Source: Ancylostoma caninum (Eukaryota; Nematoda; Chromadorea; Rhabditida; Ancylostomatidae). From it: a stretch of DNA of 64,000 bases. This document shows, piece by piece, positions 2,450 to 39,568 of the stretch. The stretch's first letter is position 1. Every line of letters starts with the position of its first letter. The notes below the pieces were generated by a model, which saw only the letters and a program-made list of their open reading frames with translations, ran no database searches and had not been told where the DNA came from. The stretch spans positions 1,049,001 through 1,113,000 of the forward strand of contig JBAJFG010000604.1 of assembly GCA_037903475.1 (NCBI GenBank). Direction: 5' to 3'. The position numbers and the translations under genes are program-made.

Positions 2450-3900
2450 GGACGCACGGACGATAGGTGTGCCAGGGGCGAATAGTGACAGATACCGTTA
2501 TGTCGATGGAGAAGGGGTTGTACTGTGACTCAACGTTGCGGAAAAGCCAGGATACGGGTTCGCAGATGGAGGAGGGGTCTGACATAGCCCAGGTGGGAGA
2601 AATGCCAGGATAGGGGTTCACCGATGGACGATGGGTCTGTGGTGGCCAAAAAGTGAGTGAATGACAGGAAACGGTCATCCCGATGGAACAGGGGTCCGCT
2701 GTGGCCCAGGTGTGAGCAACACCAGCATTCTGGTAAACTGAAGGGAGGATGGGTCTGCTGTGGCCTGAAAGTTGAGGGAACTCCAGCATTCGGGTCTAAC
2801 GAAAGGGCTCTTCTGGGGTCTGAATGTTAAGGGAACTCCAAGATACGGGTACGAAGATGGAGGACGGGGTGCGTTGTGGTCTGAAAATGTGGGGAACGCC
2901 AAAATACGGTTCGTTGGCATAGGAGAAGTCCGCTGTGCCCCTGGTGCGAGGAACGCCAGAATGTGGGTTTTTGTAGCCAAAACTGTTAGAATGACAGGAT
3001 ACGGTTATGCAGATGGAAAGGTGGCTCAGTTGTTAAAAACGCCAGCATTCGGGTCCATCGAAGAGGGAATAAGTCTGCTGTGGCCTGAAAGCTAAGCGAA
3101 CTCCAGGATACGGATTCCTGAGTGGTGGAGGGGATGTGCTGTGGTCCAAAAATGTGGGGAACGTCAAAATACGGGTTCGCTGGTGTAGGAGAGGTGCGCT
3201 GTGCCCCTGGTGCGAGGAACGCCAAAATATGGGTCTGTTGTGGCCAAAACTTTGGGAATGCCAGGATGCGGTTATGATGATGGAGTGGGGGTCCGCTGTG
3301 GCCCGGGTGTGAGGAACGCCAGGATATGGGGTAATGAAGCGGGATGGGTCTGTTGTGCCCTAAAGGGTGGGAATCCCAGTATGCGGTTATGCCGATGGAG
3401 GAGAGGTTCGCTTCCACCCAACTGTGAGGAACGAGAAGATACTGTTGACGGATGGAGGAGGGGTCCGTTGGCCCAAGTGTGAGGAATAGAAGAATTCGAG
3501 CTCACCGATGGAAGATGGGTCTGCTTTGCCCTAAAGTGTGGGAATCCCAGGGTCATGCCGATAGAAAGGGGGTCCGCTTTGGCCCAGATGTGAGGAACAC
3601 CAGCATTCTGGTCCACCGAAGGAGGGATGGGTCTGCTGGGGTCTGAAAGTTGAGGGGAACTCCAGGATACGGGTTCGTGGATGGAGGAGGGGCTGCGCTG
3701 GTCTAAAAATGTAGGGAACGTCAAGGTAGGGGTTCGCGGGTATAAGAGAGGTCCGCTGTGGTCCAGGTGCTAGGAACGCCAGAATGTGGGTCTGATCTCT
3801 GCTTAATGTGTGGGAATGCCAGGATGCGATTATGCCGATGGAGGAGAGGTCCGCTTTGGCCCAGGTGTGAATAACTGTGTGAATAGCTCAAATGGCAGGA
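2450..3900 (-). repeat. Degenerate ~60-bp satellite array
   Basis: Roughly 58-62-bp units repeat about two dozen times. Recognisable words are GATGGAGGAGGGGTCCGC, then GTGGCCCAGGTGTGAGGAA, then CGCCAGGATACGGGTTCGC. The reverse complement matches the unit of the array at 20828-22075, so the two arrays are one family in opposite orientation. Units here are far more diverged than in that array. Many long open frames occur on both strands because the repeat unit lacks stops. They are artefacts of the repeat and are not called as genes. Confidence 0.85.
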
Positions 3901-17584: not shown

Positions 17585-17650
17585 ATGTTCAACGCCCGTT
17601 CCATCTGCAACAAATTCCCAGATCTTCACCATCTCCTTTCATCCAGTGCA
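17585..17650 (+). pseudogene. CR1-like ORF2, first part of AP endonuclease
   Basis: The frame reads MFNARSICNKFPDLHHLLSS, ending at 17650. The N-A-R-S-I/V-C-N-K-x-x-x-L motif opens the APE-type endonuclease domain of CR1/Jockey ORF2, which nicks target DNA. It is cut off exactly at the left terminal repeat of the insertion. The expected next motif, I-L-I-T-E-T-W, is found at about 24095. Confidence 0.75.
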
Positions 17651-17665
17651 CGTAGTAATCCCCCA
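17651..17665 (+). repeat. Left terminal inverted repeat of the 6.43-kb element
   Basis: CGTAGTAATCCCCC matches the reverse complement of 24066-24079. A near-palindrome follows directly (about 17664-17683, centred on CCGAGCTCGG). Confidence 0.7.
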
Positions 17666-17683
17666 GCCGAGCTCGGTTGGCTG

Positions 17684-18436
17684 TCACCCCAATTGGGCTG
17701 GGATCAGGGCGGACCCAGCCGAGCGGCAGCCGATTGCATCGATGGCAGAGGCAGCTGGGCTGTGCTGTAGATCGCTGCCTTATCAATCGATCGATGCTGC
17801 ATGGGACATTGCTGGTAGAGAACGAGCTACCTTTCCATGTCGGATGTGTGGCCGGCTGGGTAGTGATACCGAGTCATGCGCAGTAACTCGAGGGTTCGGA
17901 CCTTCTCGCCGCCGAAGGTTTTGCGAACTAGTGGGTGATAGTGGCACGCAAAGGGGTTGCATACCACTAGGTATGCATACACGAACGTTAGATTCTTCTT
18001 TTTTCTTCAATTTTCCAAGAATTGGTGTAGGGTGGTGTTCCTTGAATACCCAGGGCGACATCTAACGTGCAACTTCGCAGACCAAACGTAGGTCGTTGAA
18101 GTTGCTTGACAAGAGAACCACCATCAGCGCAGATGGAGATGAGTCATGAAACTATTGAATCCGAGGGTTTTATATTCACTGGGAAAACGTCACAGCAACC
18201 TTTTTTATCTAGATTTTTTCACAAACTAAAAAACAAACAACTAAAAAGACTTTTATCTAAGTTCAACCAAATTCTGCACAAACAATGGACACGATGGAAC
18301 TAACGGGAGAGCAGACACAGCACAACTGAATACGGGCAACCAAACCTAAAGGAAATGCCGAAGATCTGAGTTGTGAACATTTTGTAGAATGTTATACGAA
18401 TAATCAAAAAAAGAAAAGGATAACAAGATGATTACT
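17684..18436. other. Left subterminal region of the element
   Basis: It is rich in GGGCTGGG and CAGCCGAGC words and includes a short hairpin at about 17958-17975 (GCATACC loop GGTATGC). The long frame 17499-18065 crosses the insertion boundary and is spurious. The 18.07-18.43 kb stretch is AT-rich and would be 3' flank of the plastin fragment. Confidence 0.4.
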
Positions 18437-18766
18437 CTAACAATAAAACTCAGACATCATCGGAGTGACGGGTGCCGCTGATTTCCTCATATCTGGCATG
18501 TAGTCCCGTGCCATTAGACAAGCAAACACCGTCATAACCATTTTCGGCTTCACCTAAATTGACTCACAAAATCGCTCGGAGGTAAAAACATTACTCAAGT
18601 ATGCGGTTTCTTAAGAGAAAAGCTGGATAGTCATTACCTCAACGATGTCCTCAGGCAATGCGTATATTTTGGCGCCAATTTTTCGTCCACATGTGATGGC
18701 GTATTTGGCATTTTCCGTGTTGCTGTCGAGGTTTCCGTCAGATTTTATCTTCAACAAGCCCGTTTT
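18437..18766 (-). pseudogene. Plastin/fimbrin C-terminal fragment (two exons)
   Basis: Plastin cross-links actin filaments through four calponin-homology domains. The upstream exon (18638 to about 18766) contains the residues [20 protein letters not shown] followed by P-E-D-I-V-E, then a donor G-T-A-A-T-G. The downstream exon (18437-18553) begins after an acceptor ATTTAG, reads VKPKMVMTVFACLMARDY, and ends in TAG. The N-A-K-Y-A-I-S/T-x-x-[13 protein letters not shown] and P-K-M-V-M-T-V-F-A-C-L-M run is the last helix set of the final CH domain. Both exons are phase 0. About 40 residues of upstream domain sequence, and everything before it, are missing: an in-frame stop closes the frame at 18767. 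The fragment sits within a transposon-like insertion, so it is inferred to be a captured copy. Confidence 0.75.
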
Positions 18767-18930
18767 TCAAAATGTCGAGACGTTACAAAGACACTGAAGT
18801 GAAACAAAGTTTAGAATTGATAAAATCGCAATAACAATTGCATTTTTAGCTATTATTCCAGTACAGAACAATACAAGAAAAAAAACATACAATACAAGAA
18901 AAAAAACAGAAAACATAAACAATCGCAAAC
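18767..18930. other. Intron-like spacer between ING and plastin fragments
   Basis: AT-rich, with a ~20-bp tandem duplication near 18870-18909 (ATACAAGAAAAAAAACA twice). The join between the two gene fragments lies somewhere here. Confidence 0.4.
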
Positions 18931-19022
18931 CTGATAGCATATACAGTATGTAGGCTCGTTTGGATCAACAGGCATGTCGATAGGAGCTATAGCAGCAGGC
19001 TTAAAGGTGTCCATGAACGCAG
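18931..19022 (-). pseudogene. ING-family exon: linker and first half of PHD finger
   Basis: The exon lies between an acceptor (ATTACAG) and a donor (CAG/GTTTGC). It encodes F-M-D-T-F-K-P-A-A and then IDMPVDPNEPTYCICYQ. D-M-P-V-D-P-N-E-P-T-Y-C-x-C-x-Q is the near-invariant entry into the PHD finger of ING (inhibitor of growth) proteins, which reads H3K4me3 as part of histone acetylase/deacetylase complexes. Only the first zinc-ligand pair (C-x-C) is present. The expected V-S-Y-G-E-M-I-G-C-D-N exon, with the remaining Cys/His ligands, is not found downstream, so the finger cannot fold. Start phase matches the end of exon 20046-20124. Confidence 0.82.
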
Positions 19023-20045
19023 CTGTAATTTGTATTTGAAAGATAGGACATAGAAAATTCAGTAACTTGAACAAGTGCTAACCACCATCTGGAGCTCTAA
19101 GATTGCCTGGTTTCTTCCTCCTGTCACCCCCTCTCACAAGGTCTGGGCTAGGAAGGAATACCGAATCCCTGTAGACCCAACAGATTGAACGTGATCTGAA
19201 TGCCTCCTGCCCGGTGGCGGGCGATTCCAGGCCGAGCGGCGGACCTGAACCCGGCTGGGCCGGTTTTCCGGCGGCCGCTCGGCCGAAATTCGCCCGCCGC
19301 TGGACCGGCACGAGTGTCTGAGCTTTTACCTTCCACTGCTACCTTTCAAGAATCAAAATTGCCAATTTTATAGAATCTCATCTGTAGACATTTTTCGATT
19401 ACGAGTTTCTGTGGATTACTTGCCGTATTCGTGATCAACGTGATCAAACGTCAACGTACTTGCGACATGATTCATCAAAAGCTACTGCTCGAACACTGCA
19501 CAGCTATGACTAAAGCTTTTTTTCTCCAAGAAATGTGCTTGATATCATTAGATTTTTGGAGGTTAATGAAATGTCAGCTGCTGAATGATGTTGTCTGAGT
19601 TTTTCCATGTAATTCTGGACTACCTTTCAGACTTATGCAGGTTCAGATACTGTTTTCACGGAATTTTCTTCACACACAAAATGCATGTACAGTCTGGTCG
19701 CTCACAGGGGGCACCTGATCCGACTTTGTCCGCAACTACGACCTCATTTTTTTTCTTGAGAAGGAAGCGCCAGGCGCGTACGTGCGCAAGTGACCGCGCG
19801 TGGATGAGTTTGCGCGGGTGGGCAGCAAAACAGCCACTTCGACATCAGCGCCCACCTCTACCTCATATAAGTAAGCAGAAGCTTCGCAGGAAGGTGGCAA
19901 TTCTTGATGTTCTGCTTACTGATATAAGCCTGTAGCAATCGACTGCACATCGACTTAAACCGGAGTGAAAAATTTCGTGAGTGCTGTCTTTAACACTAGT
20001 GAAGGCCTTAGCTCCCTCCCACAGCATGAAACAGAAGACGAATAC
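19023..20045. other. Intron-like region within captured ING fragment
   Basis: It contains a very GC-rich patch (about 19205-19315, CGGCCGAGCGGCCGC words) with open minus frames. A possible extra exon ends at 19083 (R-R-K-K-P-G-N-L-R-A-P-D-G before GTTAGC), but its 5' border does not agree in phase with the neighbours, so it is not called. A small inverted repeat (ATAAGTAAGCAGAA / TTCTGCTTACTGATAT) lies at about 19866-19925. Confidence 0.4.
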
Positions 20046-20124
20046 CTTTCTGAATAGCAAGTCGCTGAAGTAATTGAACGCGACCATTCTTTGTGGGAGC
20101 AGGATTCACACGAGGCATTATAAC
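20046..20124 (-). pseudogene. ING-fragment exon (linker region)
   Basis: The acceptor is TTTGTATAG and the donor is AAAG/GTATTC. The encoded peptide is IMPRVNPAPTKNGRVQLLQR followed by L-A-I-Q-K. Length is 79 nt, entering in phase 0 and leaving in phase 1, which fits the neighbouring exons exactly. The peptide is basic and proline-containing, as expected of the variable linker between the ING helices and the PHD finger. Its assignment rests on position and phase, not on a family motif. Confidence 0.6.
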
Positions 20125-20256
20125 CTATACAAAGAGATCATAATTAGAAATTAAAGGCCTTTCACAGGAAGAAGAAAAAATTGTCAAGAGGCGACTAGTG
20201 AAAAAAGTGAAAAAGAATTTCATAGATACAAAGTGATTTACATCAAGGTAACTCAC

Positions 20257-20350
20257 CTCTTCTCTAGTTTTACCAGCATGAGCAGCAAGAAGAGAAGCGG
20301 ACGCGAGGACATCGTCGACGAGTATACGAGTGTTCCACGCATCTGATACA
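20257..20350 (-). pseudogene. ING-fragment exon (helical region)
   Basis: The acceptor is CTTTTTCAG (strong) and the donor is GAAGAG/GTGAGT (strong). It encodes SDAWNTRILVDDVLASASLL, then A-A-H-A-G-K-T-R-E-E, with no stop. It enters in phase 2 and leaves in phase 0, matching exons at 20419-20459 and 20046-20124. An amphipathic helix fits the second half of an ING N-terminal domain, though similarity is too weak to be sure. Confidence 0.62.
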
Positions 20351-20418
20351 CTGAAAAAGGAGTGGTATCTCGATGCACAGAAGAAACTCGATAAAAAGCC
20401 GTCCACAACTGTGAAAAC

Positions 20419-20459
20419 CTGTTTACGTAGTCTTGAAACTTGGACTGTTTAGCCAAATC
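20419..20459 (-). pseudogene. ING-fragment micro-exon
   Basis: A 41-nt exon between CTAAG and AACAG/GTTTTC encodes DLAKQSKFQDYVN. It enters in phase 0 and leaves in phase 2. Borders are weaker than those of its neighbours. It is called mainly because it keeps the reading frame from exon 23270-23374 to exon 20257-20350. Confidence 0.45.
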
Positions 20460-20640
20460 CTTAGTAGGACTTCCACAGTAGATGTCGTGTTGTAATAGAG
20501 CATACCGTATACAGGTTTCACACTAGGAGTCCAACATGCGACAAAGTTAAGGATAGCAGGACAAGTACGAACCAATTCTGATTAACTTCTCCGTGAGAAA
20601 AAAGCTAAGACAGGAGGAGAGCGAAGAATGGAACTATGTA

Positions 20641-20790
20641 AATACTAGCGCCCCTTCGGGACGCTAGAAAGTGGGGTGGGGAAGCCACTTGGGACATGTG
20701 CAAACGCTTCACACTTGCCAAATCTCTAGAAAATTGATAGAGAAGCAGAACCAATCTTCCAATGGGCCCAAACATGAAGTCCTTCTTATG
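20641..20790 (-). repeat. SINE-like dispersed repeat ending in a hairpin, copy 2
   Basis: The reverse complement matches 4208-4360. Here the terminal hairpin is CTAGCGCCCC TTC GGGACGCTAG. It sits in the large intron of the captured gene, next to the satellite array. Confidence 0.5.
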
Positions 20791-20827
20791 AGTTGAGTAT
20801 GAGCATGAGAAGTTCGTCCTCCATCGT

Positions 20828-22075
20828 ATGGCGTATTCGTGCGTATTCCTCACTACCCGGCTAACGCAGACGCGTTCTCCATCGGCGGAACTGTATCCTG
20901 CCGTTCCCCACACTATTGGACAAGGCGAAATCGTATCCGAGTGTTTTCCAGACTACTGGGCCGCAGCGGGCTTTTCTCCATCGGTGGACCCGTATTCTGG
21001 CGCCATTTTCACTGTTAGGCCTGAACCATATCCTGGTATTCTCCACTTTACTGAGTCACAGCGGAACAATCCTATATTGGCGGACCCGTATTCTGGTGTT
21101 ATCCATACTACTGGGCCACGGCGGGCCCTTCCTCCATCAGAGCGACCGTGTTCTGGCGCCCTCCTCACAGTTAGGGCAAGCCGGATCCGTTCTCCAAGCG
21201 CGGGTTCGCATCCTGGCATTCTTAACACTATCGGACTAAAGTGAACCCGTATCCTGACGTTCTCCACACCATTATGCTACGACGGGTCCTTGCTCCATCG
21301 GTGGACCCGTATCCTGGCATCCCCCCACACCACTGGGCCACAGTGGGCCATTTCTCCATTGGTGGACCTGTATCTCGGTGTCCCCCGCACCATTAGGCCA
21401 CGGCGGGCCTTTTCTCCATCGGTGGACCCGTATCCTGACGTCCTTCACACAACTGGGCCACGGCGGGCCCTTTCTCCATCGGTGGACCCGTATCCTGTCA
21501 TCCCCCACACCACTGGGCTACAGTGGGCCCTTTCTCCATCGGTGGACCTGTATCTCGGTGTCCCCCGCACCACTGGGCCATGGCGGGCCTTTTCTCCATC
21601 GGGGGACCCATATCCTAGCGTTCCCCACAGCACTGGGCCACGGCGGGCCTTTTCTCCATCGGTGGACCTTTATCTCGGTGTCCCCCGCACCACTGGGCCA
21701 CGGCGGGCCCTTTCTCCATCGGTGGACCTTTATCTCGGTGTCCCCCGCACCACTGGGCCACGGCGGGCCCTTTCTCCATCGGTGGACCCGTATCCTGTCA
21801 TCCCCCACACCACTGGGCCACAGTGGGCCCTTTCTTCATCGGTGGACCGTATCTCGGTGTCCCCCGCACCATTGGGCCATGGCGGGCCTTTTCTCCATCG
21901 GTGGACCCATATCCTGGCGTTCCCCGCACCATTGGGCCACGGCGGGCCCTTTCTTCATCGGTGGACCCGTATCCTGGCGGGGCCACGTTTCTCGGTGGAC
22001 CCGTATCTCGGCGTCCGCCGCACCATTTGGCCACGGCGGGTCCTTTCTCCATCCGTGGACCCGCATCCGTATATA
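20828..22075 (+). repeat. ~60-bp satellite array with higher-order pattern
   Basis: From 21301 to 21840 the unit is exactly 60 bp and starts GGTGGACC at every 60th base. The consensus parts are CCGTATCCTGGCG, CCACTGGGCCACGGCGGGCC and CTTTCTCCATC. Two subtypes alternate: A (CCGTATCCTG) and B (CTGTATCTCGGTGTCCC). Units at 21661 and 21721 are identical, and the block at 21481 recurs at 21781, which shows recent multi-unit duplication. Flanking units (20828-21300) are more diverged. Long frames on both strands (up to 280 codons) arise because the 60-bp unit is a multiple of three without stops. They are not evidence of a protein. Confidence 0.9.
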
Positions 22076-22674
22076 GTTGATTGGATATACAATGTCATGC
22101 CTTCCTATTTAGAGGCTTTTACTCTTTGTTAGTGCAGAAGCTTTCTCGAAACGAACGAATGTTGTAACGAACGAACGTTGTGACTACACAATCGCCGCGA
22201 AAATTTAACAGGGGCTGACGCGACCGCGTAGGTCCAGCCTCCCCGAAGCTTTCGAGACGCGGCAGCTCTCATGGCACGCGTCCATTTTCTTCCTGCGAGT
22301 GCACGCAGCGTCGCAACAGTGGAAGGCTGGTTTTCCTGCTGCGTACATTGTGCAGCCTAAAAGCTCGTAAACACTCCCTCACTCCTATGCGGTGAGACCG
22401 CCAGCGAAGGTGATGAAATCACCATCCCGTGCATGCGGGAGAGCCAGCAGTGACGAAATTGCGGGTCCCGAAGCGAACGTGTCTGCGTCCATGGAAATCG
22501 GCCATTTCGCCACACAGTCTGCGCCTCAAGATTGCGGTGTCTATGTGTGCCGCCCCGTATCTCTAACCGCTCTAGCCCCCTTACGGCGCTTTGTTTAATA
22601 GATCCAATCTACATTGAACAAATTTTCTAAACATGACCTTTATTTTCGACCATTTCCATGCGTAGCAACAAAGA
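22076..22674. other. Spacer after satellite array
   Basis: A GC-rich stretch without a recognisable gene. ACGAACGAA words repeat at about 22153-22180. Confidence 0.35.
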
Positions 22675-23119
22675 TCTCAAAATCAGAAATTTCTCTGAAA
22701 CTTTGTCTAAAGGGACCAAAATTTGGGTAGGATTTACGGCAGGATTAGGGTAAGTGAGATATCTCACGAAATCGCTTGAATTATTGTCTACGGGGGCTAT
22801 TTGACATGCTGGTCACGGATATCACATTGACTTTGCAAGTTGAAAGCAATCTGAGGTTTCCCTATGGACGGTAACTGCCCTAACCCTGTCGTTACCGTAT
22901 CCTAATGGGGTTAAATGGGCTAAACGAATATGATATTCATGATCAGCATATCAAATAATCCCCCTAGACAAAACTTCACATGATTCTGTGTGATACAGTA
23001 GTTTCCCTATCATAACCCTACCCAAATGGGATTACGGCACAAAATTAATGTGATTTTCGTCATCAGCATATCAAATAACCCCCGTAGACGGAGTTTCAGA
23101 AAAATCTTTGGTTTTGAGA
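22675..23119. mobile_element. Fold-back repeat with three copies of an internal motif
   Basis: The left end reads TCTCAAAATCAGAAATTTCT and the right end is its mirror (AAAAATCTTTGGTTTTGAGA). A motif of about 26 bp beginning CAGCATATCAAATAACCCCC occurs at 22785-22811 (inverted), 22944-22969 and 23064-23089. The element is 445 bp and non-coding. It lies in the large intron of the captured ING fragment. Confidence 0.65.
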
Positions 23120-23269
23120 TTTTGAGGCGGAACAAGTGGAATAATGCGAAAATTTCCTTTATGAAACCGAGCAGTGGGGTAATGAAAACCATGACAACGT
23201 CAAGAATTACCACGAAAACTGAAAACAAAAACAAAAACACAATTGGCCAACAAAAACATATTCGCTTAC

Positions 23270-23374
23270 CTGGACTTCTTTGAAGCACTTGTCCCACTGC
23301 TCTTTTGTAGTCTTCTTCAACTTTTTCACGTATGCTACGGTGCGCACTTCGATTTCATGGATGATCTTCTCAAC
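23270..23374 (-). pseudogene. ING-family exon: N-terminal helical domain
   Basis: The acceptor is AAGTGCAG and the donor is TCCAG/GTAAGC (strong). The 105-nt exon (35 codons, phase 0 at both ends) encodes VEKIIHEIEVRTVAYVKKLK followed by K-T-T-K-E-Q-W-D-K-C-F-K-E-V-Q. Together with the preceding exon (R-E-L-D-G-K) it follows the ING N-terminal pattern L-P-x-L-x-x-x-x-x-E-I/M-R-E-L/M-D-x-x-V and then an amphipathic helix. This domain dimerises and contacts acetyltransferase complexes. Confidence 0.7.
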
Positions 23375-23434
23375 CTGCACTTGCAGAAATATTTAAAAGA
23401 ATAGTAAATAGCAAATTCAAACAAAACGACCAAC

Positions 23435-23495
23435 TTTTCCATCCAGCTCTCGTATTTCTCCAGCATTTTTGCTAATGAGTGGAGGCAGATCCCAA
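23435..23495 (-). pseudogene. ING-family exon: start of N-terminal domain
   Basis: The frame reads WDLPPLISKNAGEIRELDGK and then a GT donor (AAA/GTTGGT) at 23434. The L-P-P-L-x-x-x-x-x-E-I-R-E-L-D motif is characteristic of ING N-termini. The 5' border is uncertain: the frame stays open to 23644, with a possible start methionine there. Confidence 0.6.
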
Positions 23496-23670
23496 CTTTT
23501 GGCGTAGGAAATATTTGGATCAAAGATTAGGTACGAAAAGGGCGATTTGTCACCCAGCAAATGAATAGTCCTTCTTTTACAATGAAATGTTTTCTTCATG
23601 TCAAAAATGGAGAGACTGGAAAGACTCATATGGCAATTTAACATAACGAACCCAAAACAATTGAAATTTA

Positions 23671-23972
23671 GGCTGATGATGAATTAATTGCATCATCAGC
23701 CGAAAATTTTTGCGCGGAAGACTCGTCCAAACGCACTTTCCATGCCTAAATGGTGTGGGCTGCCGGCAGCCCACACTAACGCAATTTTACACGGGCTGAA
23801 CGAAATAGTGGGTCAGCCGAGGAGAGTCACGTAAGTTCCTCACGAGCAACTTACGTGCCCCTACTCGGCTGACCCACTATTTCTTCTTTACTTTGGCAGC
23901 CCAGCCAGAGGCTGAGCTGGGTTGCATCCCAGCTCAGCTGGGATGGGAAATAGAGAACCGAGCACGCTCGGC
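23671..23972. repeat. Cluster of five hairpins near the right end of the element
   Basis: Successive palindromes lie at 23671-23701 (GGCTGATGATG arms), 23753-23776 (perfect 24 bp, GTGTGGGCTGCC and its complement, no loop), 23802-23883 (36-bp imperfect arms, starting GAAATAGTGGGTCAGCCGA), 23911-23938 (GCTGAGCTGGG arms) and 23958-23971 (CCGAGC/GCTCGG). All end within about 110 bp of the right TIR. The left end has a smaller counterpart at about 17664-17683. Confidence 0.8.
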
Positions 23973-24065
23973 TTACCCCTAGGCTGCCTATCCTACAACA
24001 TCGCAAGGGAGCTGGGCTGCCTTTGGACGAGTTTTTTGGCAGTCGACTGGTCAACCCAGCTGAAG

Positions 24066-24080
24066 GGGGGATTACTACGG
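24066..24080 (-). repeat. Right terminal inverted repeat of the 6.43-kb element
   Basis: GGGGGATTACTACG mirrors 17651-17664. The flanking GCGCA is the probable target duplicate of GTGCA at 17646-17650. Confidence 0.7.
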
Positions 24081-26625
24081 GCGCAGGCCTTGGCTCATCC
24101 TCATCACTGAAACTTGGTGCAAAGCTGATACTATAAGTGACGCAACCATAACTCAGGGTTTGGGTTAGGACATTCATAGGTGTGATAGACTTGGTTCCAT
24201 CGAAGGTGGTTGAGTTTTGGCTTTAGTGCTCAGCGGTGCTCCTCATCATTTCTTATCATCCCGAAGCTTTTCTCCGTACTGTCAGTGCCTTGTCCTCTCT
24301 CTCTCTTAACATTCCACCCAAACCAATTCGTCTACTTCTCGTCTATCGTAGTCCAGCTTGCGCACATAACTATTTCAAAGATACTCTCAACTTCGTAACA
24401 GAATTCGTAGACGAGAAATGCGACATTATTGTAACCGGCGATTTCAACTTCCCAGGGTTAAATTGGCGCCATACAAAAATTGGGGTCGTTCCTTTTCCTC
24501 ATCTCAGCGTTTCCTTCAGTTTTGCTCATAATACTCATTGTCTCAGCTGGTCTCTGCTCCAACCCACGCATTCAGCACTCTTGACCTTGTTCTTACCGAC
24601 AACAATCATCGAATGACCAACCTCCAAGTCCTGCCCCCTTTTTCCACACCTGACCACGCTGTTGTCTCCTTTAGCATCCGTGGTATCCAGCCTCAACATT
24701 CTAAAGCATCACTTCGCCTAGACTATGCTCATGCGGACTATGATAGTATATGCGCTAACTTTTTTCTCATTGATTGGCGTATTATGTTCAATACTGCTGC
24801 TACAGCGGATGAGTGTTATAGTATCTATATCAAGACCTGTACCCAGCTTATTTCTTGCTTCGTCCATGTCCTACCCTCAGAACAGTACTAAGAAATATCC
24901 ACTTAGAATTCAAAAAATTCAAGCTAAGGTAGTGCGACTATATAGAGACCGCTTCAAAATTGGAGCTGAAAAGTAGCTGCGCTATTCCAGAAAACTGAAA
25001 CGGGAGCTTGCCCTTCTCAAATTGACAGAGGAAGAGAAGATAGTCGTAACCCAAAGACATTCTATAGATATATGTATCAATAGAGTTCTTAAATGCAGAG
25101 GTGGTATTGGAAGTATCCGCAACTCTGGTGGCGATCTGTGCAGATCCGATAAGGAAAAAGCAGAAGAGTTTGCTATTTTTTTTCAAATCCGTCTACAAGA
25201 AAGCATCGAGCGGTAATATTATTTGTCAACCTTTCACCGCGGCATCACTCGACTTTCTTGACATTAACAGTGAGCGAGTATACAGAACTCTATCTGAACT
25301 ACCACTTCGAGCTTCTCACACTCCAGACTCTATCCCTTATTTCTTCCTCCGGAAAAAAAGCCCTGGGTCTTACCCCGATTCTAACCCTGCTTTTTAATCG
25401 GTTCCTTCTTCAGGGCGAGAGACCATCCATGTGGCGGTTGGCGTATGTGAAACCTATTTTCAAAAAAAAGCTGCAAATTAGACGTGAGAAATTATAGACC
25501 CGTTTGTCTGACCTTATGCACAAGCAAAGTTTTAGAGAGAATCGTTTGCAAACTACTATGTTGGTACCTCAAAAACAATAACATTACCACTAAGGCTCAA
25601 CATGGCTTCCTGAGTAAAAGGTTTACCCAGACGCCACTCTTGTCTTCCCTACCAAATTGGAACAGAACTGTTGACAGCAATGAGTACATAACGGCATGTT
25701 TCACTGATTATCACAAAGCATTTGATCCAATTCCATTGGATCTTCTTTTTGTTGAACTCAGGAGCTACGGCGTACAGGGCTGTCCTCTTCAATTCCTTCG
25801 ATCCTTCCTTTCAAAACATTTGCAGCAAGTGTGCGTGAATGAGTCTTGCTCGAGCAAATATCCCACCCCTAGCGGAGTCCCTCAAGGGGCCTGAATAGGG
25901 CCAGCTGGATATTTCTCATGAAAACACCACAGTTATGTATATAGGCCAGTTGGGTGTCGCTTTTTTTAGAAAGCCGGGAGCTGCAGGTATCTACGACAGT
26001 CCGAGATCTTGGCGTCACAACACTCTCAATTTTGACATGTATATAGCTAAAATAGTTAACACTTCTCATGCTAGATCCAACTACATCTCAAAAGCATTTT
26101 CCACTCGGAACCTGGAGACACTTTACAAACTGATCGTGACTCGAGCTCGAGCTATACTTGAGTATTGCACACCTATATGGTCTCCTGCCAAGAAAGCTCT
26201 CATCGATGCCACAGAAAATGTCCAAAAGAGATTCACATATCGAATATTTGCTAGGAACGGACTTTTTCGTGTTCCTTATAGAGAGAGATTTTTGCGCCTC
26301 GGAACATCATCACTGTTTTTTAGAAGAATTATCTTTGACCAAAATCTGATTTACAAAATTGTAGAATCCAAAGTCGACGTCAATGTGGAAGAGCTTTTTA
26401 CTTTTTCTAATTTCAATCGTAGAACAATAGGGCATCAGTCCAGATTTCTTGTGGAAAAGCTCGCACCCAGCAATTCCGAGACTCCTTCCTAATTCGAGCT
26501 GTAACAATGTGGAATGATCTGCCGGAGGCCATTGAACGCTCGTCAACAACTACTTCCTTCAATACCAAGCTCGAACAACTTGAGAAGAGGGGGTTCCATT
26601 CAATTCCGTTCATGCAGCTCTAACG
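24081..26625 (+). pseudogene. CR1-like ORF2 (endonuclease and reverse transcriptase), dead
   Basis: The protein order is collinear with CR1 elements but spread over several frames. Endonuclease: I-L-I-T-E-T-W (~24095), DIIVTGDFNFPGLNW (~24425-24470), S-T-L-D-L-V-L-T-D (~24575), D-H-A-V-V-S-F (~24655). RT: N-Y-R-P-V-C-L-T...S-K-V-L-E-R-I (~25487-25540), H-G-F-L-S (~25600), T-D-Y-H-K-A-F-D (~25705), PTPSGVPQGA (~25864-25893). C-terminal domain: L-Y-K-L-I-V-T-R-A-R-A-I-L-E-Y-C-T-P-I-W and M-W-N-D-L-P-E-A-I, ending M-Q-L-stop at ~26623. The catalytic Y/F-A-D-D box that should follow P-Q-G is missing. The sequence jumps after a stop at ~25893 to post-catalytic sequence at ~25935, so a deletion removed it. 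Several stops and frame changes also exist (for example ~24166 and ~24890). Confidence 0.8.
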
Positions 26626-32123: not shown

Positions 32124-32127
32124 CAGA

Positions 32128-32485
32128 TGTCAGAGGATCACAGTGATCTAGGCGACCACGCGGAAGAGACGGTTCCTTGACCACCCCAAGCGGGTATAAT
32201 AGAAGGCCAAAAGGAGGAGCCACGAGTTTCTCTGATAAGCTCCGAGAAGGGAGACAGAGCCGTTGAGTAGAGAGGCGGTCCTCTCGTAGAACGAGAGAAC
32301 AGAAAGAAGTAACCCGCTTGTGTGGCCAAGCAACCGCGTGCCCTCACCTCGAGGCCGCCCAAGTTTTGTTAATTTCATTGTTGAGGTTGTTGACCGATAC
32401 CGGTCGTTGTTGTTATTTGCTTTAAGGATAAATAATGAGTACAGAGATCTCTCTAATCATACCCCTAGACTAGATTCGACCCAAA
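32128..32485 (+). repeat. 5' LTR
   Basis: It starts TGTCAGAGGATCACAGTG. A promoter-like GGGTATAATAG lies near 32190, and an AT-rich GATAAATAAT lies before the end. It lacks a 64-bp segment present in the 3' LTR after GTACAGAGA. A perfect small hairpin (CTCTCG/CGAGAG) near 32279-32297 is destroyed in the 3' LTR. Confidence 0.92.
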
Positions 32486-32507
32486 TGGGGGCCGAACCGT
32501 CTCGAAC
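32486..32507 (+). promoter_or_regulatory. Putative tRNA primer binding site
   Basis: TGGGGGCCGAACCG starts directly at the LTR end. TGG complements a tRNA CCA tail, and further on TCTCGAAC would pair with a T-loop. The tRNA species is not assigned; the spacing is off by about one base. Confidence 0.5.
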
Positions 32508-32598
32508 ATAGACCTAATGATCAAAAAGTAAGCACATCCAGGAAAAATCGATCGAGATCCACGGTGATCGCGGGGTCCAAGGTTCAGATACAGGGACG

Positions 32599-33876
32599 GT
32601 GGTGCAGTCATTTCTTTTGTGTGGAAGTACAACGTTGTGCGTCCAAATTTCTCTCATTCTTCTGCTGAAATCCGTCATCTACCTACCGCACAAGATTCGT
32701 GTTCGTGTCGTACGTGTTGTTAAGATGAGGATGCAAAGAAAGCGTATTGTTCTACTTGCAGGCAGACCAAGTAAAAAGAAAAAGGCAGGAGACAAGCCAC
32801 AGGATCCGACCAGAGGACAGAAAGACCAGGTCAGGATCATTTCAAACTCCATGCTAGCTTCAGGTATAGAGAAGGTAATACACTCTACAGAGGAAATACC
32901 CGTTATGATGAGTAAAATGCTAGATCAATGTTGCACTTCGTTAAGATACCGGGTAACGTTAGAGACAGAGTTAACGGCAAGGGTATCTAGCGCGTGCGCA
33001 GACCTGAAATCTTTGATGCTTGAAAAAAAACGTATTATATACTGTCCCACAAGAAATTTTTCATACATTAAAGGGCAGAGGCATAGAAACTCCACAAGAT
33101 CTCAAGAGCTTCCTGGCAGTAACAGAGAGGGACGGGGATCTGATAACGGAGTTATGTCAGTTGTTAAATACTGATGTTTTACAGATCAAGGAGAAGATCG
33201 AGGAAATGCAAAAGGAGTCTGCCTTGAAGATCAGGATGATGACATGGAAGTCAATGTGATGCAAGGTAGGCAACAAGAGCTAATAGACACAGAGGACGGT
33301 CACGAGCGATTCAAGTTTCAGATGCCGAGTTTCATGAGGCCGTTGAAAGAACGAAGATCAGAGATTGGGCGGCAGTCAGAGCTGCATTGGAGGCTATCGG
33401 AGCCAACGAAAGTAGCAGACCAGCAACACCCTCAAGGTATGGATGAACATTTATTAGCCTATTTTCAATCGATGACATGTGCAGACCCAGGAATCTTCAA
33501 AGGGCGCGAAAACGAGGACCTGTATGAATTTATAAGAAAATTCAAACGTAAATACGAGGAAGTCGTCCGAGATAGCGCCACCTTAATAGACATCCTAGCC
33601 GACGACCACCTCAAGGGGCGGGCCAAAACCATGTTTCTGAGCATCCCCCAGCACATAAAAGATCAAGGATTTGAGGCAGTAGATGCGGAACTAGGATCAC
33701 TGCTAGCTTGGGATTCTTCTGCGGCTAGAATAAAGGCACTCACGGCGCTAAGAAATTTAAAGTTACGGCCAGTGCAGGAAATCGCAGATTTCTGCATAGT
33801 ACTCGAGAACCTGGGTAGAAAAGCGAATCTGCAATGCTCGATTGAAGATCAGTGGAGTACGCGCAAATACTCCTAG
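32599..33876 (+). pseudogene. gag, capsid region, frameshifted
   Basis: Gag forms the virus-like particle. Frame 1 opens at 32599 with a basic stretch (R-P-S-K-K-K-K-A-G-D-K). It shifts to frame 2 near 33030 (PQEIFHTLKGRGIETPQDLK) and returns to frame 1 near 33245. The capsid-like part is C-A-D-P-G-I-F-K-G-R-E-N-E-D-L-Y-E-F-I-R-K-F-K-R-K-Y and D-D-H-L-K-G-R-A-K-T-M-F-L-S-I-P, the usual retrotransposon gag pattern (F-x-G at the start, an aromatic-rich helix after it). A third shift near 33855 moves the frame to the nucleocapsid/protease part. Confidence 0.75.
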
Positions 33877-35009
33877 AGAACGTAGCGAACTGGCCCGAAT
33901 ACGTACAACTAATCGGAGCACTACATCGAAAAGATCCGAGGCAAGCATACAATGAAATCAAACAGCTTGCAACAGTCATTGAGCAGTCGAGGCGAATTTG
34001 TGGTGGAGAAAAGGGATATAACAATGTGAGAACTCATGCATCATGGAGAGACCGAGCCAATGCATATGCCAGGAAAGACCAACAGAGCAACAGAAATGCA
34101 GCACCACTGACAGGGTCGCAGCAACACTGGGACAGAGCTCCGTTGAGGCCGGAAAGAGGACAGGAGCCGACACAGGAAACTCCGCGAGGCGCACCACCAC
34201 AGCAAGGAAGGCGATGCTATGACTGTTCGCAATACGGACATCTAGCCAAGGAATGTCCACGACGTCGCCCCGAAGAAGGCCAACAGAGAAGAAACTCAAA
34301 CCAACCAAGGAATCGTATGTCAGCAATAATCAACAACGCGCGGAATCTAGCTGTGAAAAGTATGATCTCCAAGGAAAAGGAATTGGTTGGAAAAAGAACC
34401 GTCCTGCAAACTCGTCTCACGGGGAAGGAGGTACCAGCACTTCTGGACACCGGATCAATGATTAGTATTATCCCAATCAAGGTTCTGGAAGAGGCACAGA
34501 AGAGAGGGTATGATGTGGACACACTGGAAGTCCTGAGCAGCGATAGCAAAGGGATATACGGTGCATCGAATGACGAAATGACTTTCGTGGGCGCGGTACG
34601 CATCGAGGTACAACTTCAAGGCGGAGCGTAACAAGCCGTGGCATTCGACATATCAAAAGAAGATGACGAGGAAATCTTAATAGGGACAAACGCCCTAGAA
34701 AATCTAGGAGTTTCCGTGGTGACAGAAGGAACAAGACTGGAGAAGACGTCTGGAACGGGTGAAGACACAGCGAAAGTCGTTCAAAGAGTGACCATTCCAC
34801 CGTGTAAGACCGCATGGGTCAGGGTAGGATGTGAGAAATCGGAGACGGGAGAGGAGCGGATCCTGTGGCCCCCACGAAAGGAGGTAGCGGACGGCGTCTT
34901 CAAAATCACTAACCAAGAAGCAAGGGTACCCATCTTCAACCCAAGTGAGGAGGCGATTGTACTTAGAAAAAGAAGAGTTCGGCACATGGGCAACCGACAA
35001 ATGGCATGA
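33852..35009 (+). pseudogene. Nucleocapsid zinc knuckle and aspartic protease, one internal stop
   Basis: Residues at 34215-34256 form a CCHC zinc knuckle (CYDCSQYGHLAKEC), which binds genomic RNA. The protease follows: L-L-D-T-G-S-M-I-S-I-I-P, with catalytic D-T-G at 34445-34453, and a later E-I-L-I-G-T-N-A-L flap-end motif in the same frame. A TAA at 34629-34631 splits the protease before that second motif. The frame is otherwise open to 35009. The protease would cleave the Gag-Pol polyprotein. Confidence 0.82.
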
Positions 35010-35094
35010 TACGCTGAGATGACCCAAACACTACGATGCTGGATAGTACTGGATTGGAAATTGAAGGAGGTGTTAGAAGAGAAGAACTTCGCGA

Positions 35095-36530
35095 TTAAAT
35101 CAGGAAAAACCGAGGGAAAGAATTAATCGAACAGGATATCAAGGACGTGCTGGAAGAGTACCCCGACGCCTTCGCAATAAGCGACAAAGAATTGACGCAA
35201 ACAGAACTCGTGAAAATGGAGATAGACACGGGCGAAAACACACCAGTAAAGTTGAAGACAAGACCCGTACCACTTGGGATCCGCATGAAACTGAAAGAAA
35301 TGCTGCAGGACCTAGAGAAAAGGGCCATTATTGAGTAAAGCCCATCGGAATGGGCTTTTCCCATCGTACTAGTGAAAAAGAAGGACGGGTCGATTGTGCG
35401 TCGACTACAGAGAGTTGAACAAGCGCATCAAATTGGATTCATATCCAATTCCAACAATCGAGGCGATATTGCAGAATATAGCAGGGAAGCGCTTCTTTTC
35501 AACGTTGGACATGTGCAGCGGGTATTGGCAAATACCGCTTGAAGAGAGTTCCAGGGAGAAGTCCGCGTTTACGACTCCAGAAGGACTGCATCAATTCCGA
35601 GTGGTGCCATTCGGATTAAGCACAAGTCCAGCAGTCTTCCAAAGGCTAATGGATGCCGTACTGTCAGACCTACTGGGAAAGGAAGTATTCTGCTACATAG
35701 ATGACATCATGATTTGCACCGACACCAGAGAAAGGCACATTGAACTCCTCCGGGAAGTATGCAAGCGGATGAGAGTAGCTGGTTTGAAGCTGAAGGCCAA
35801 GAAATGTGTCTTGCTCCAGACTTCGGTGACATTCCTAGGCCACATTATCGATGTGGAGGGAGTTCACACGGATCCAGCGAAAGTCGACGCAATCACCAAG
35901 TTCCCTGTCCCAACAAATGAGAAGGAATTGAGGCGATTCCTGGGAATGGCATCGTTCTATAGAAAATTTTACCTAGGATTCTCGAAAGAAGCCGGATGCC
36001 TCTTCAGTATGACATCAACCAAGAAACAGTGGATGTGGGGAAAAGAGCACAAGGAGGCTTTCGAAAAGATTAAGAAAATGATATCGTCAGCCCCCGTGCT
36101 GGTACAACCGAACATCGAGAAGGCCAGAAGCCGCGACAGGCCCTTCATTATTTGTACAGATGCATCAACCACTGGACTCGGGGCAGTTCTTTCTCAAAAT
36201 GGTGACGACAACGAGGTCCATCCGATCTTCTTTGCTTCAAAAGCGCTAAGCAAGGCCGAAAGAAACTACCACGTGACCAACCTCGAGGCGCTGGCGGTCG
36301 TTTTCGTCGTGAGAAGATTCCACATTTTCATCTACGGCCTACCTACGATAGTATACACAGACCACCAACCACTAACAGCACTTTTCAAGCGGACGGACGT
36401 TTCCACTCGAGTTCTCAGATGGTCACTTGAGCTGCAGCGATACAGTTTGAACATTGAATACGTGAAAGGAGAAGCCAATGCTGTAGCGGACGCGATAAGC
36501 GGAGGAGCATCCACTACCGACACCACTTTG
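35095..36530 (+). pseudogene. Reverse transcriptase and RNase H
   Basis: The RT N-terminus (35147-35338, V-K-L-K-T-R-P-V-P-L-G) ends at an in-frame TAA (35336-35338). A frameshift near 35394 precedes the main frame, which is open from 35394 to 37001. RT motifs are C-V-D-Y-R-E-L-N, F-S-T-L-D-M-C-S-G-Y-W-Q-I, VVPFGLSTSPAVFQRLMD, and the catalytic Y-I-D-D at 35694-35705. RNase H follows with F-I-I-C-T-D-A-S-T-T-G-L-G-A-V-L, NYHVTNLEALAVVF, and Y-T-D-H-Q-P-L. All catalytic acidic residues I can see are kept, so inactivation is by the stop and the frameshifts. Confidence 0.9.
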
Positions 36531-36749
36531 GAAGGGTACGGTGAAGCCGTCGTGGGCGAGATAACTGTAGCTACAAAACCAACCTGCTTGAAGGAACTCC
36601 AGCAGGACGATGAGTGGTCTACAGTAATCGAGAAGGTGAAAGAAGGAAAAACGGAGGAGTATGTGAGAATATCAGGAATGCCACGACCTGTGCGAATAGC
36701 AGACTTCGGAATAAGCAATGGGGAACTCACTATGTATAGAGAAGACGGA

Positions 36750-37900
36750 GCAGAAGTACTCATCGTTCCAAGAAATGCCAGACGCATAGTGTTTCCAGAA
36801 GCACATGAAGGTGTGTTAGCGGGACATTGGACATTTCAGCGCGCAAAAGATTCTCAACCAGCTACGAAGGAGAGTGTTCTGGACGGAAATGGCTCAGGAC
36901 GTTCACAAATGGACGAAGGAATGTCAAAGGTGCTATATAGAGAACCCATGCAGAAAAACAGTGCCGCCGTTGAAGCCGATAATCACAACAAGGCCATATG
37001 AAGTTATTGGCGTCGATATATTCGAGCGGGCCCGACCACCAGCGGAAACCGATACGCAGTTACAGTCATCGACCACTTCTCTAAATACGCGGCAGCGTAT
37101 CCGGTACCAGACAAGAAAGCCGAGACCTTGGCGAAAGCGATATTCTTGCGATGTATAGCAGACAGGTGTCGCTGGCCACAGGCAATCCTATCAGATCGCG
37201 GTGAAGAATTTGAGAACAAAATTATGGATGAAATAAAGAAGATCACAGGAATGAAGCAGATGTTCGCGAAGGGCTACAACCCAAGAGAAAACGGGATAAC
37301 GGAACGGATGAATGGAACAATCGTAACTATGTTACGCAAAGCCACGAAAACACCACTGGAATGGGACGTAAGACTCTCATTCTGCATCATGGCGTATAAC
37401 ATGATACCGCATAATGTCACAGGAGAGAGTCCATATTTCATACTCCACGGAACAGACCCCGTTTTTCCGTCAAACACGATACCACTGGACTAACTCCTTA
37501 CCAAATCTGGAGTGGAGCAGTCGACTACAAGGCGGAGTTGACCCAAGCTATCGCGGAAACACAAGAGCGCGTAAGAGAAAACAACGACCGCATGCGTACA
37601 TGAATGAAGAACGCGTACGATAAGAGAAATGACGTAGAAAACATGACATATCCAAAAATTGGTGATCGAGTGTACATGAAATGCCCAGCAGAGAAAGCCA
37701 AAAACACACATCCAAAGCTTACTTACGAATGGGGAGGGCCTTTTAGAGTTCTAGACGTAAGCCAAAACTCAGCATTAATCACAAGAATAGGTGACAATGC
37801 AGACCCGATACGTGTCCAATTTGACATGCTCCGCGTAGTCCCGTTAACCATCTCGGACGACCGTATCGATACCGTTAAATCAAGGGGCAAAAGAGGACGT
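36750..37900 (+). pseudogene. Integrase with GPF module, frameshifted
   Basis: The HHCC zinc-binding part begins E-A-H-E-G-V-L-A-G-H-W and continues in another frame, with its C-x-x-C at 36922-36933. The catalytic triad is present across frames: D at 37014-37016 (V-I-G-V-D-I-F), D at 37194-37196 (L-S-D-R-G-E-E-F) and E at 37302-37304 (N-G-I-T-E-R-M-N). A TGA lies at 37601-37603. The C-terminal GPY/F-type module reads K-I-G-D-R-V-Y-M-K...Y-E-W-G-G-P-F-R-V-L-D-V-S (~37660-37760) and is followed by a basic R-G-K-R-G-R-K-P-K-P-K stretch. Confidence 0.87.
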
Positions 37901-38347
37901 AAACCAAAGCCAAAGGTTAGGTGTGCAAAAATAGAATCATGTTTCAGAGACGCCTACATCACGGAAGTGGCACAACCAGGACATCTACTCCACGAATGCT
38001 TGGATGGATGCTTGTTACGATCACAGCTAAACAAGATCGAAGGCATTATTTCCCCTGGAGCGTTCGGCCGAGAGACGGTCGGTACCGCATGGAAGGCATG
38101 CAGCATATTTGGAAGGACGGATATGGATCTCGGTGAGAAGATCAAGCTATATCGAGAGGAAGCTGTATGCATAGAAGCCAAGGCACTCGAAAAAATCTTG
38201 AAATTTGCCTTCGACAAGTGTACCGCATGGACCGAGTTCATTTGCAGTTGAAGCTTGAAGCACAATCCAGTCGAGAGTTACGGAGTGACAAGGATATACG
38301 ACGAAACACTGAAATCTCTGAAGCTGGACATGGCACTGGCAGAGCGA

Positions 38348-38557
38348 GGGTGTGGGTCATGATGAGGCAAAAGTGGGTGGGCAATGTGTCTGCGATTGGT
38401 TCAATCAAACCCTCGCTCCGCCCTTCAGGACCTAGTCGCACTAATTCGCGCGCGATTTCACCATAGTTGCTCTTGAAATTTGGATGTACGTGGGGAAGAG
38501 TTGACACCGAAGGGCGGGAAGACACCGCCCCATTTTGCCTCATCATGACCCACACCC
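38348..38557. mobile_element. 210-bp MITE with 9-bp target duplication, nested in the LTR element
   Basis: Terminal inverted repeats of 25 bp begin GGGTGTGGGTCATGATGAGG at both ends. The flanking direct repeat GCAGAGCGA is at 38339-38347 and 38558-38566 without mismatch. A 9-bp duplication is typical of Mutator-like (MULE) elements, so a MULE-type MITE is likely. The insert plus duplication is 219 bp, a multiple of three, so the host frame on both sides stays in register. Confidence 0.92.
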
Positions 38558-39133
38558 GCAGAGCGAAGCCGAAGGCCCATAAAAGAAGGACCTGTCGGAT
38601 TTTTGGCACCGCGGTGTGCAGCGGCATTGGAAAGGGACGGACTACAAGGAGGAATACAAACTAAGGTGATAGTCCAATTCAGCCAGCTGCCAAGCATATT
38701 GGAGCCAATGAAGCATTTCCGCACATGGGTTATTGTGTGGCCGAAGGACCTACGCAACGACAATGATGCAATCACGAGTACTGTAGTGATTTGCATGAAA
38801 TACCTCGAGGAAGGAGGGAAAATTGTCTCTGCATGGCCCCCGGTGATCAACAGCGAAGTATTCGTATGGAAGACCATGGTAGAACTATGGACACTACTCG
38901 ATGACACGCTGGCGAACTACGCAGGGCCAACGCAGTTTTTCAAGACGGCCTTCACAAGAACTGAGGAAGGGAAAATAATAAGTGAAATTGGAGCGCCCGA
39001 GTCTAGTTTTCAGTTCTATGGAACGTATTGCGGTGTTGGAAATGCCCGCTACCTCCACGACGTAGTGCGCAGGCGAACGCCAGGAGCGATGCTGGAGAAG
39101 ATGAACCCTTCACCGACGAGGACGTCGGCTCCC

Positions 39134-39146
39134 CGGAGGGGAGGGA
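39134..39146 (+). promoter_or_regulatory. Polypurine tract
   Basis: GGAGGGGAGGGA lies immediately 5' of the 3' LTR, as needed to prime plus-strand DNA synthesis. Confidence 0.8.
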
Positions 39147-39568
39147 TGTCAGAGGATCACAGTGATCTAGGCGACCACGCGGAAGAGACGGTTCCTTGAC
39201 CACCCCAAGCGGGTATAATAGAAGGCCAAAAGGAGGAGCCACGAGTTTCTCTGATAAGCTCCCAGAAGGGAGACAGAGCCGTTGAGTAGAGAGGCGGCCC
39301 TCCCCCAGAACAAGAGAACAGAAAGAAGTAACCCGCCTGTGTGGCCAAGCAACCGCGTGCCCTCACCTCGAGGCCGCCCAAGTTTTGTTAATTTCATTGT
39401 TGAGGTTGTTGACCGATACCGGTCTTTGTTGTTATTTGCTTTAAGGATAAATAATAAGTACAGAGAGCTGTCCTTGTGCAAAAGAACCGCGCTGTCGGTA
39501 ACACATCCTTCTCAAGATAAGCCGTCTATCTCTTTCTAATCATACCCCTAAACTAGATTCGACCCACA
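39147..39568 (+). repeat. 3' LTR
   Basis: It starts TGTCAGAGGATCACAGTG and ends GACCCACA. It is 64 bp longer than the 5' LTR owing to a segment after GTACAGAGA (about 39461-39530). Confidence 0.92.

Follow-up and report, generated by a model that had tools for sequence, protein, structure and literature searches.

Does a segment that splits a CR1 copy and holds exons of unrelated host genes represent a transposon that captures genes and, if so, of which kind, and how did the gene pieces get inside? The question is raised by an element of about 6.4 kb in the Ancylostoma caninum genome, lying within the window analysed here, i.e., the whole 64,000-nucleotide stretch at C131:1049001-1113000 (C numbers denote contigs, L numbers element ends and the elements formed from them) of an assembly of 348 Mb in 638 contigs. 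The original prediction, made from the window's letters, had proposed a gene-capturing transposon with terminal inverted repeats, and this is supported by paired ends across the genome, by shared ends that enclose differing interiors, and by a sibling element with the same breakpoint in a captured ING gene piece. We consider it highly probable (about 0.85) that, taken jointly, the element is a non-autonomous PIF/Harbinger member of a family that repeatedly captured host genes, that its interior grew stepwise, that capture was repair-based, and that the cargo is decaying.

Boundaries and target site

Comparison with other copies sets the limits of the element at 17647-24083 (6,437 bp). The matching inverted ends that had been described are indeed present: with up to 2 mismatches allowed, CGTAGTAATCCCCC matches the window at 17651-17664 (plus strand) and 24066-24079 (minus strand) and nowhere else, compared to a mean of 0.22 matches in shuffled sequence, and the complete 18-bp ends are identical to each other at 16 of 18 positions. 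The 5-bp target duplication read earlier (GTGCA/GCGCA) had to be given up, however, since other copies place those letters inside the terminus [C(A/T)G]TGCCCG; the real duplication is the 3-bp CAG. The flanking CAGTG also suggested membership in the hAT elements, which make 8-bp target duplications, but the flanks match over 3 bp only, which rules this assignment out. The ends and the interrupted host copy are as follows.

17588..17646, plus strand: CR1 endonuclease frame to the left of the element, aligned to an uninterrupted CR1 at C470 and ending in the target copy CAG (3 bases)
17644..17646, no strand: target-site duplication CAG, 3 bp, left copy (from flank agreement and the CR1 relative)
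17647..17664, plus strand: left terminal inverted repeat, TGCACGTAGTAATCCCCC
24066..24083, minus strand: right terminal inverted repeat, CGCCCGTAGTAATCCCCC read inwards
24084..24086, no strand: target-site duplication CAG, 3 bp, right copy (from flank agreement and the CR1 relative)
24087..24285, plus strand: CR1 endonuclease region to the right of the element, over the stretch aligned to the CR1 at C470

When the flanks are rejoined with a single CAG, they align over 258 bp without a gap (67% identity) to the uninterrupted CR1 at C470, and the reading frame is preserved across the rejoined site (LLSSRPWLILITETWC vs. LLSSRPLLVFITETWC); a stop codon of the window copy lies beyond that site. That is, the reported insertion into a CR1 endonuclease frame is confirmed, and the halves fit a single copy split at the 3-bp duplication rather than two separate copies. 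Because the alignment runs ungapped and in frame through the rejoined site, both ends were inserted as a pair. None of six matches is a close relative of the host CR1, and an attempt to date the insertion from the age of the CR1 was abandoned since the five relatives are just 63-83% identical.

A family of paired ends and its transposase

The earlier suggestion to look for paired ends elsewhere and to compare the cargo between them proved fruitful on both counts. Searching the genome with the left end gave 26 matches, the window copy included, and copies with a readable terminus start with [C(A/T)G]TGCCCGTAGTAATCC or a near variant. There are 44 exact termini in the genome (23 forward, 21 reverse), compared to none for a reversed-pattern control, and they form 13 convergent pairs at a spacing of 0.4-15.7 kb which, together with three further candidates and the window copy, make up 17 elements readable at both ends. 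The 3-bp flanks match in 15 of these 17 (CAG, CTG, once CCG); if flanks were independently CAG or CTG, so that half agree by chance, this would have a probability of ~0.001. Two end types are distinguishable, A (CTCAGCCC...) and B (ATTCAAGTGA...), and the window element has ~170-390 bp at its left and ~240-410 bp at its right in common with members of subfamily A, while the interiors are mostly different.

17647..18024, plus strand: subfamily-A left end region; L046 and L043 match it at 80-82%, further members over shorter parts
23687..24083, plus strand: right end region of subfamily A, ~84-86% to members

Two pairs of members are nearly identical at two sites each (L033/L042, 99.7% over 6,277 bp; L035/L041, mostly 97-99%), and therefore long interiors have moved recently as units.

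One element with A-type ends, L039_40 (15.7 kb), encodes a DDE_Tnp_4 transposase (Pfam E 7.6e-35) and an HTH-like piece (E 0.018, below the Pfam cut-off). It is the sole element of the 17 in which such a transposase was recognised, based on lists of open reading frames (ORFs; at most seven per element, part of which were put to Pfam), and of the nine proteins similar to its transposase all seven with a species name come from Ancylostoma caninum, duodenale or ceylanicum (65-82% identity). Based on the DDE_Tnp_4 transposase and the 3-bp target duplication, we assign the family to PIF/Harbinger, and the MULE-like placement proposed earlier does not hold. The targets seen here (CAG, CTG, CCG) depart from the TWA preference of plant PIF/Tourist elements, and we do not place the family in that branch; CWG duplications are a known Harbinger trait (zebrafish Harbinger3), which the literature searched did not show. 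In the window element itself no transposase was seen in the ORF lists or among the 10 ORFs put to Pfam, in agreement with the original prediction, and the element would thus be a non-autonomous PIF/Harbinger member without a transposase of its own. Its transposase may be supplied in trans by members such as L039_40, as the shared ends suggest. Compared with L039_40, two members, L034 (coverage 97%, identity 99-100%) and L028 (coverage 89%, identity mostly 95-98%), appear to be its deletion derivatives.

Captured gene pieces

The interior of the window element is a mosaic of backbone, gene pieces and repeats. Parents were sought as genome matches to 18060-20620, and the matches listed are 40 of 955 candidates.

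18025..18225, plus strand: inner backbone in common with the sister element on C437 (distantly C22), by sequence match
18283..18810, minus strand: captured plastin piece with the last two coding exons, introns and 3' flank, 86% to C597:1136494-1137031 (exon limits by eye)
18923..19128, minus strand: captured ING piece (flanks and the exon that runs into the PHD finger), 87% to C621:77436-77646
19145..19322, no strand: short dispersed repeat, nested, with many copies in the genome (up to 93%)
19402..19670, plus strand: second piece from C252:403895-404182, 75%, in the orientation opposite to the 19964-20643 piece
19964..20643, minus strand: captured RabGAP/TBC exons and introns, upstream of the TBC domain, 83% to C252:402920-403608
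20641..22616, no strand: region with a 60-bp tandem array (21241-21979); 20641-21978 is 91% and 22220-22616 is 96% identical to parts of the subfamily-B element L037_38
22721..23147, no strand: dispersed repeat, nested and with inverted arms; many copies in the genome match it at 77-81%
23148..23491, minus strand: captured N-terminal part of ING (exons and intron), 71-77% to C621, with a breakpoint that recurs in C437
23489..23660, plus strand: backbone past the ING breakpoint, in common with C437 and C100; ATC, a 3-bp microhomology, at the join

The intron-containing plastin exons reported on the minus strand are confirmed, with a CH domain (Pfam 5.6e-8) in addition to the DNA match to C597, beside which a second calponin-homology match lies upstream on the same strand. 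The corresponding claim for ING stands by DNA similarity to the full ING gene at C621, which is what our assignment is based on, and is weak by Pfam: the window exons joined by eye reach 3.4e-4, below the cut-off, and the single ING ORFs have no match at 0.1. The C621 gene, which matches both ING pieces, is complete (exons joined by eye; ING domain 1.1e-16), and its PHD finger is above the cut-off for one PHD family, though just below it for PF00628. Accordingly, parental ING and plastin genes exist elsewhere and the window exons are not the sole copies. Where two host genes had been counted, ING and plastin remain, but a third, RabGAP/TBC (19402-19670 and 19964-20643), had been missed, as had the two nested repeats and the 60-bp tandem array. 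The gene on C252 has RabGAP-TBC exons 2.4 kb downstream of the donor piece on the same strand, and may be TBC1D22. The three parent loci are on separate contigs, and introns were carried along.

Related long 60-bp tandem arrays are also found in L037/L038 (C482:169698-183339), which has a non-LTR retrotransposon inside (endonuclease- and reverse-transcriptase-like ORFs, by eye).

To what extent other members carry gene pieces was surveyed with Pfam in 9 of the remaining 16 elements (150 ORFs). L046 contains UTP20_C (9.2e-20) and a DnaJ domain in two exons that are each below the cut-off; we count the latter as a capture because the two exons match successive parts of the domain in order, within a 1.67-kb donor match. 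Its interior is largely accounted for by donors, namely C45 (570 bp, 93%), C231 (pieces of 1,227, 269 and 196 bp, 86-90%, with a dispersed repeat nested there) and C20 (1,675 bp, 92.5%), so that three further donor pieces are recognised: UTP20, a DnaJ gene, and one without a named gene. Part of the C231 piece is also inside L039_40 (97%), and therefore members share cargo. L036 carries a Mago nashi exon (3.8e-8), whose donor was not found among the matches listed (40 of 2,795 candidates). Overall, captures that are above the Pfam cut-off or have a donor are present in at least 3 of the 10 elements examined, the window element counted. Weak matches to the Spt5 CTD (L032:682-1014, 4.7e-4) and a C1 domain (L041:3407-3610, 0.0095) fall below the Pfam cut-off and were not counted; they are possible further captures. 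A separate match of L036 to C164:7650253-7650968 (~700 bp, 78-80%, split by a dispersed repeat) is a possible donor.

Probable stepwise growth and decay of the cargo

Besides itself, the region 23140-23660 has three relatives in the genome: C437 (88%), the C621 gene (77%) and C100 (86-87%, past the ING breakpoint only). The relative on C437 is a sister element. Its left terminus can be recognised, it has matches to the left end, and its ING breakpoint is that of the window element, past which 167 homologous non-ING bases differ from the window element at 20 positions; hence the captured ING N-terminal piece moves with the element. The plastin, TBC and ING-PHD pieces were looked for in C437 by sequence match and none was found, nor was a right end up to position 170,400. 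The backbone that follows the ING breakpoint is present on C100 (broken by other sequence), together with a right terminus, with no match to the ING gene within 4.3 kb and no left end found. The simplest order suggested by these siblings would be a C100-like backbone, then the ING 5' piece, and then the ING-PHD, plastin and TBC pieces.

Right of the ING piece on C437 (L050, ~2800-3171) there is also a degraded ISXO2/IS1595-like (Merlin-like) transposase fragment (E 0.012, below the cut-off).

Differences from the donors, counted with exon limits set by eye, amount to 12/211 in plastin exons and 35/307 in other plastin sequence, 17/297 in TBC exons and 29/253 in TBC introns, 7/102 in the ING-PHD exon and 7/54 in its flank, and 19/109 in ING N-terminal exon 2; divergence between the window element and C437 is ~0.11-0.12. 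Pooling plastin and TBC (ING left out), exons differ at 29/508 and non-exon sequence at 64/560 positions (ratio 0.50, P=0.001), which therefore fits an unconstrained copy of a donor whose exons are constrained. The cargo has lesions as well: the ING start is past the breakpoint, plastin has an altered stop, and the TBC exons have gaps (one of 7 bases). As far as sequence can tell, the captured pieces are decaying copies, and the element appears to carry gene fragments, not a working chimeric gene.

The ING N-terminal exon diverges more than the other captured exons (19/109 vs. 36/610, P=0.0002), which suggests that this piece was captured earlier, although rates may vary between exons. That the two ING pieces were captured at different dates is no more than a suggestion, given that their direct comparison yields P=0.054 and the same caveat about exon rates applies. 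A paralogue that would be a nearer donor of the N-terminal piece was not found, C621 matching at 77% only. The second ING piece, apparently the younger, comes from further along the C621 gene and keeps the same order and orientation in the window element. It is tempting to speculate, although we think it rather unlikely, that capture feeds on itself, a captured ING fragment offering the homology that draws later gap repair to the same gene and gradually turning a PIF element of an animal germ line into a multi-gene collector.

Capture mechanism and alternative explanations

We propose that the ends would be recognised by a transposase, probably provided in trans by L039_40-like members that have the same ends; insertion duplicates a 3-bp target, mostly CWG, as seen in the flanks. 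The interior would have been built in steps, the ING 5' piece first and then the ING-PHD, plastin and TBC pieces and the nested repeats, in line with C100 and C437. The likeliest route of capture is faulty repair of an excision gap, in which short microhomologies would let synthesis jump to unrelated templates in the genome before the element is re-closed. Four joints are readable at the base level: 6 bp are shared at C45|C231, 3 bp at C231|C20 (by eye), 3 bp at ING|backbone (one letter of which is changed in C437), and 0 bp at TBC|tandem region, whereas a random joint would share at least 3 letters in 5% and at least 6 in 0.13% of cases (equal base frequencies). The published alternative is that two neighbouring elements flanking a host gene fuse and then move as one, which has been described for plant Pack-TYPE elements including Pack-PIF (PMC8903248). 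Such a fusion should leave ends behind, and a single internal terminus-like match at 3 substitutions does occur in L033/L042 (same stretch) and in L030_31, which may be chance; no internal terminus was found at up to 3 substitutions in the window element, in L046 or in the six donor loci (0.8-3.0 kb). Moreover, exact termini are absent from the donor contigs C252, C20, C45 and C231 and lie 0.28 Mb (C597) and 3.3 Mb (C621) away from the donors on the other two, and donors on several contigs would require several rounds of fusion. Hence, based on the joint microhomologies and the lack of end remnants inside the element or the donor loci, we favor gap repair with template switching, and regard fusion of neighbours as improbable for this family.

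Alternatively, a gene-free element may have inserted into the CR1 and the fragments may have been added in place later, by nested insertion or ectopic repair, never moving as cargo. The nested dispersed repeats show that in-place growth occurs, the insertion may be old given the lack of close CR1 relatives, and the plastin and TBC pieces match only their donor and the window element among the matches listed. Against this, the ING piece and its breakpoint are also in C437, the restored CR1 site implies that the ends moved as a pair, and long interiors of other members are at two sites with 97-99.7% identity, so that we find growth entirely in place unlikely. An exapted chimeric gene under selection, made up of the ING-TBC-ING-plastin series on the minus strand, would account for the shared strand of all recognised coding pieces, but is very improbable: the halved exon divergence is as expected for a neutral copy of a constrained donor, and the series has lost its ING start, altered its plastin stop and gained the 7-base gap in a TBC exon. 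An assembly chimera comes to mind with 638 contigs, yet it could hardly have produced a 3-bp duplication with a restored CR1 frame, the same ING joint in C437 and ends of one kind in 17 elements, and we give it next to no weight.

Several observations nonetheless weigh against the PIF/Harbinger capture model that we prefer. PIF/Harbinger elements have a second protein (ORF1) with a Myb-like domain (PMC2836001), and such a protein is weakly seen here in L039_40 (Myb/SANT-like ORF, L040:1279-1560, Myb_DNA-bind_4, E 0.0061, 17.4 bits vs. a cut-off of 27). Two of the 17 elements have mismatched 3-bp flanks, L032 (CCG/CTG) and the transposase-bearing L039_40 (CAG/CTG), and it is from shared ends that we infer the supply of transposase in trans. 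Among the matches listed, a single element has the plastin and TBC pieces, and they may have been added in situ; stretches such as 18811-18922 and 19671-19963 lack an assignment in whole or in part; and C100 may have lost ING rather than never having had it. One of the four joints has no microhomology and another was read by eye, and the host CR1 copy is too isolated for the insertion to be dated.

Relation to known capture systems

The element shows the features of Pack-TYPE transposons: terminal inverted repeats, host-gene fragments between them, no transposase of its own found, and parent genes elsewhere (C597, C621, C252). It resembles Pack-MULEs, which capture gene fragments with introns, in its intron-bearing pieces, but Pack-MULEs have 8-11-bp target duplications and a MuDR-type transposase, unlike the 3-bp duplication and DDE_Tnp_4 of this family, and the element is therefore not a Pack-MULE. 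Helitrons have neither terminal inverted repeats nor target duplications, both of which are present here; those of maize reportedly share the stepwise capture of several genes (PMC3288121). Closer are the Pack-PIF elements of maize and rice (Gisby and Catoni 2022, PMC8903248), which are likewise non-autonomous, with host-gene fragments between inverted repeats, shared ends, unique interiors and successive acquisition. Plant PIF elements, however, mostly have TTA/TAA duplications (vs. CAG/CTG, once CCG, here); gene pieces in one Pack-PIF example measure 163 and 58 bp, and the fusion model put forward for them is not supported for the window family.

Gene-fragment capture by transposons with terminal inverted repeats is well documented in plants and has little animal precedent, as the original prediction held for nematodes, although there a direct precedent exists. 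Turmoil-1, a Harbinger of C. elegans, has two captured gene pieces (rsp-2, cpg-3) in its long terminal repeats (Sela et al. 2008, PMC2572040), and thus shares with our family the superfamily, a nematode host and unrelated gene fragments, one of them with an intron. The Turmoil-1 fragments are 205 and 131 bp long, and its family has one full-length copy that codes for the transposase, whereas here the fragments are internal and up to ~1.7 kb, the elements that carry them lack a transposase, the cargo varies among members, and two elements have three donor loci each. A literature search, with most subscription papers outside its reach, found no other report of gene capture by an animal PIF/Harbinger family. 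The window family thus brings plant-type fragment shuffling in an animal together with donor loci, siblings resembling states before and after capture, and joints readable to the base, and the choice between gap repair with template switching and fusion of neighbours becomes directly testable. In annotation of the A. caninum genome, transposon cargo may lie behind partial models of ING, plastin, TBC, UTP20, DnaJ and Mago.

Other elements

L030/L031 (C164:3259292-3273232), a subfamily-B element with matching CAG flanks, contains an insertion resembling a long terminal repeat (LTR) retrotransposon, with reverse-transcriptase-like ORFs (by eye). Elsewhere in the window, an LTR retrotransposon occupies 32126-39444, where zinc-knuckle and reverse-transcriptase-like ORFs (by eye) lie between two direct repeats of 300 bp (97%) spaced 7,019 bp apart, and a perfect 95-bp tandem duplication is found at 1744-1935.

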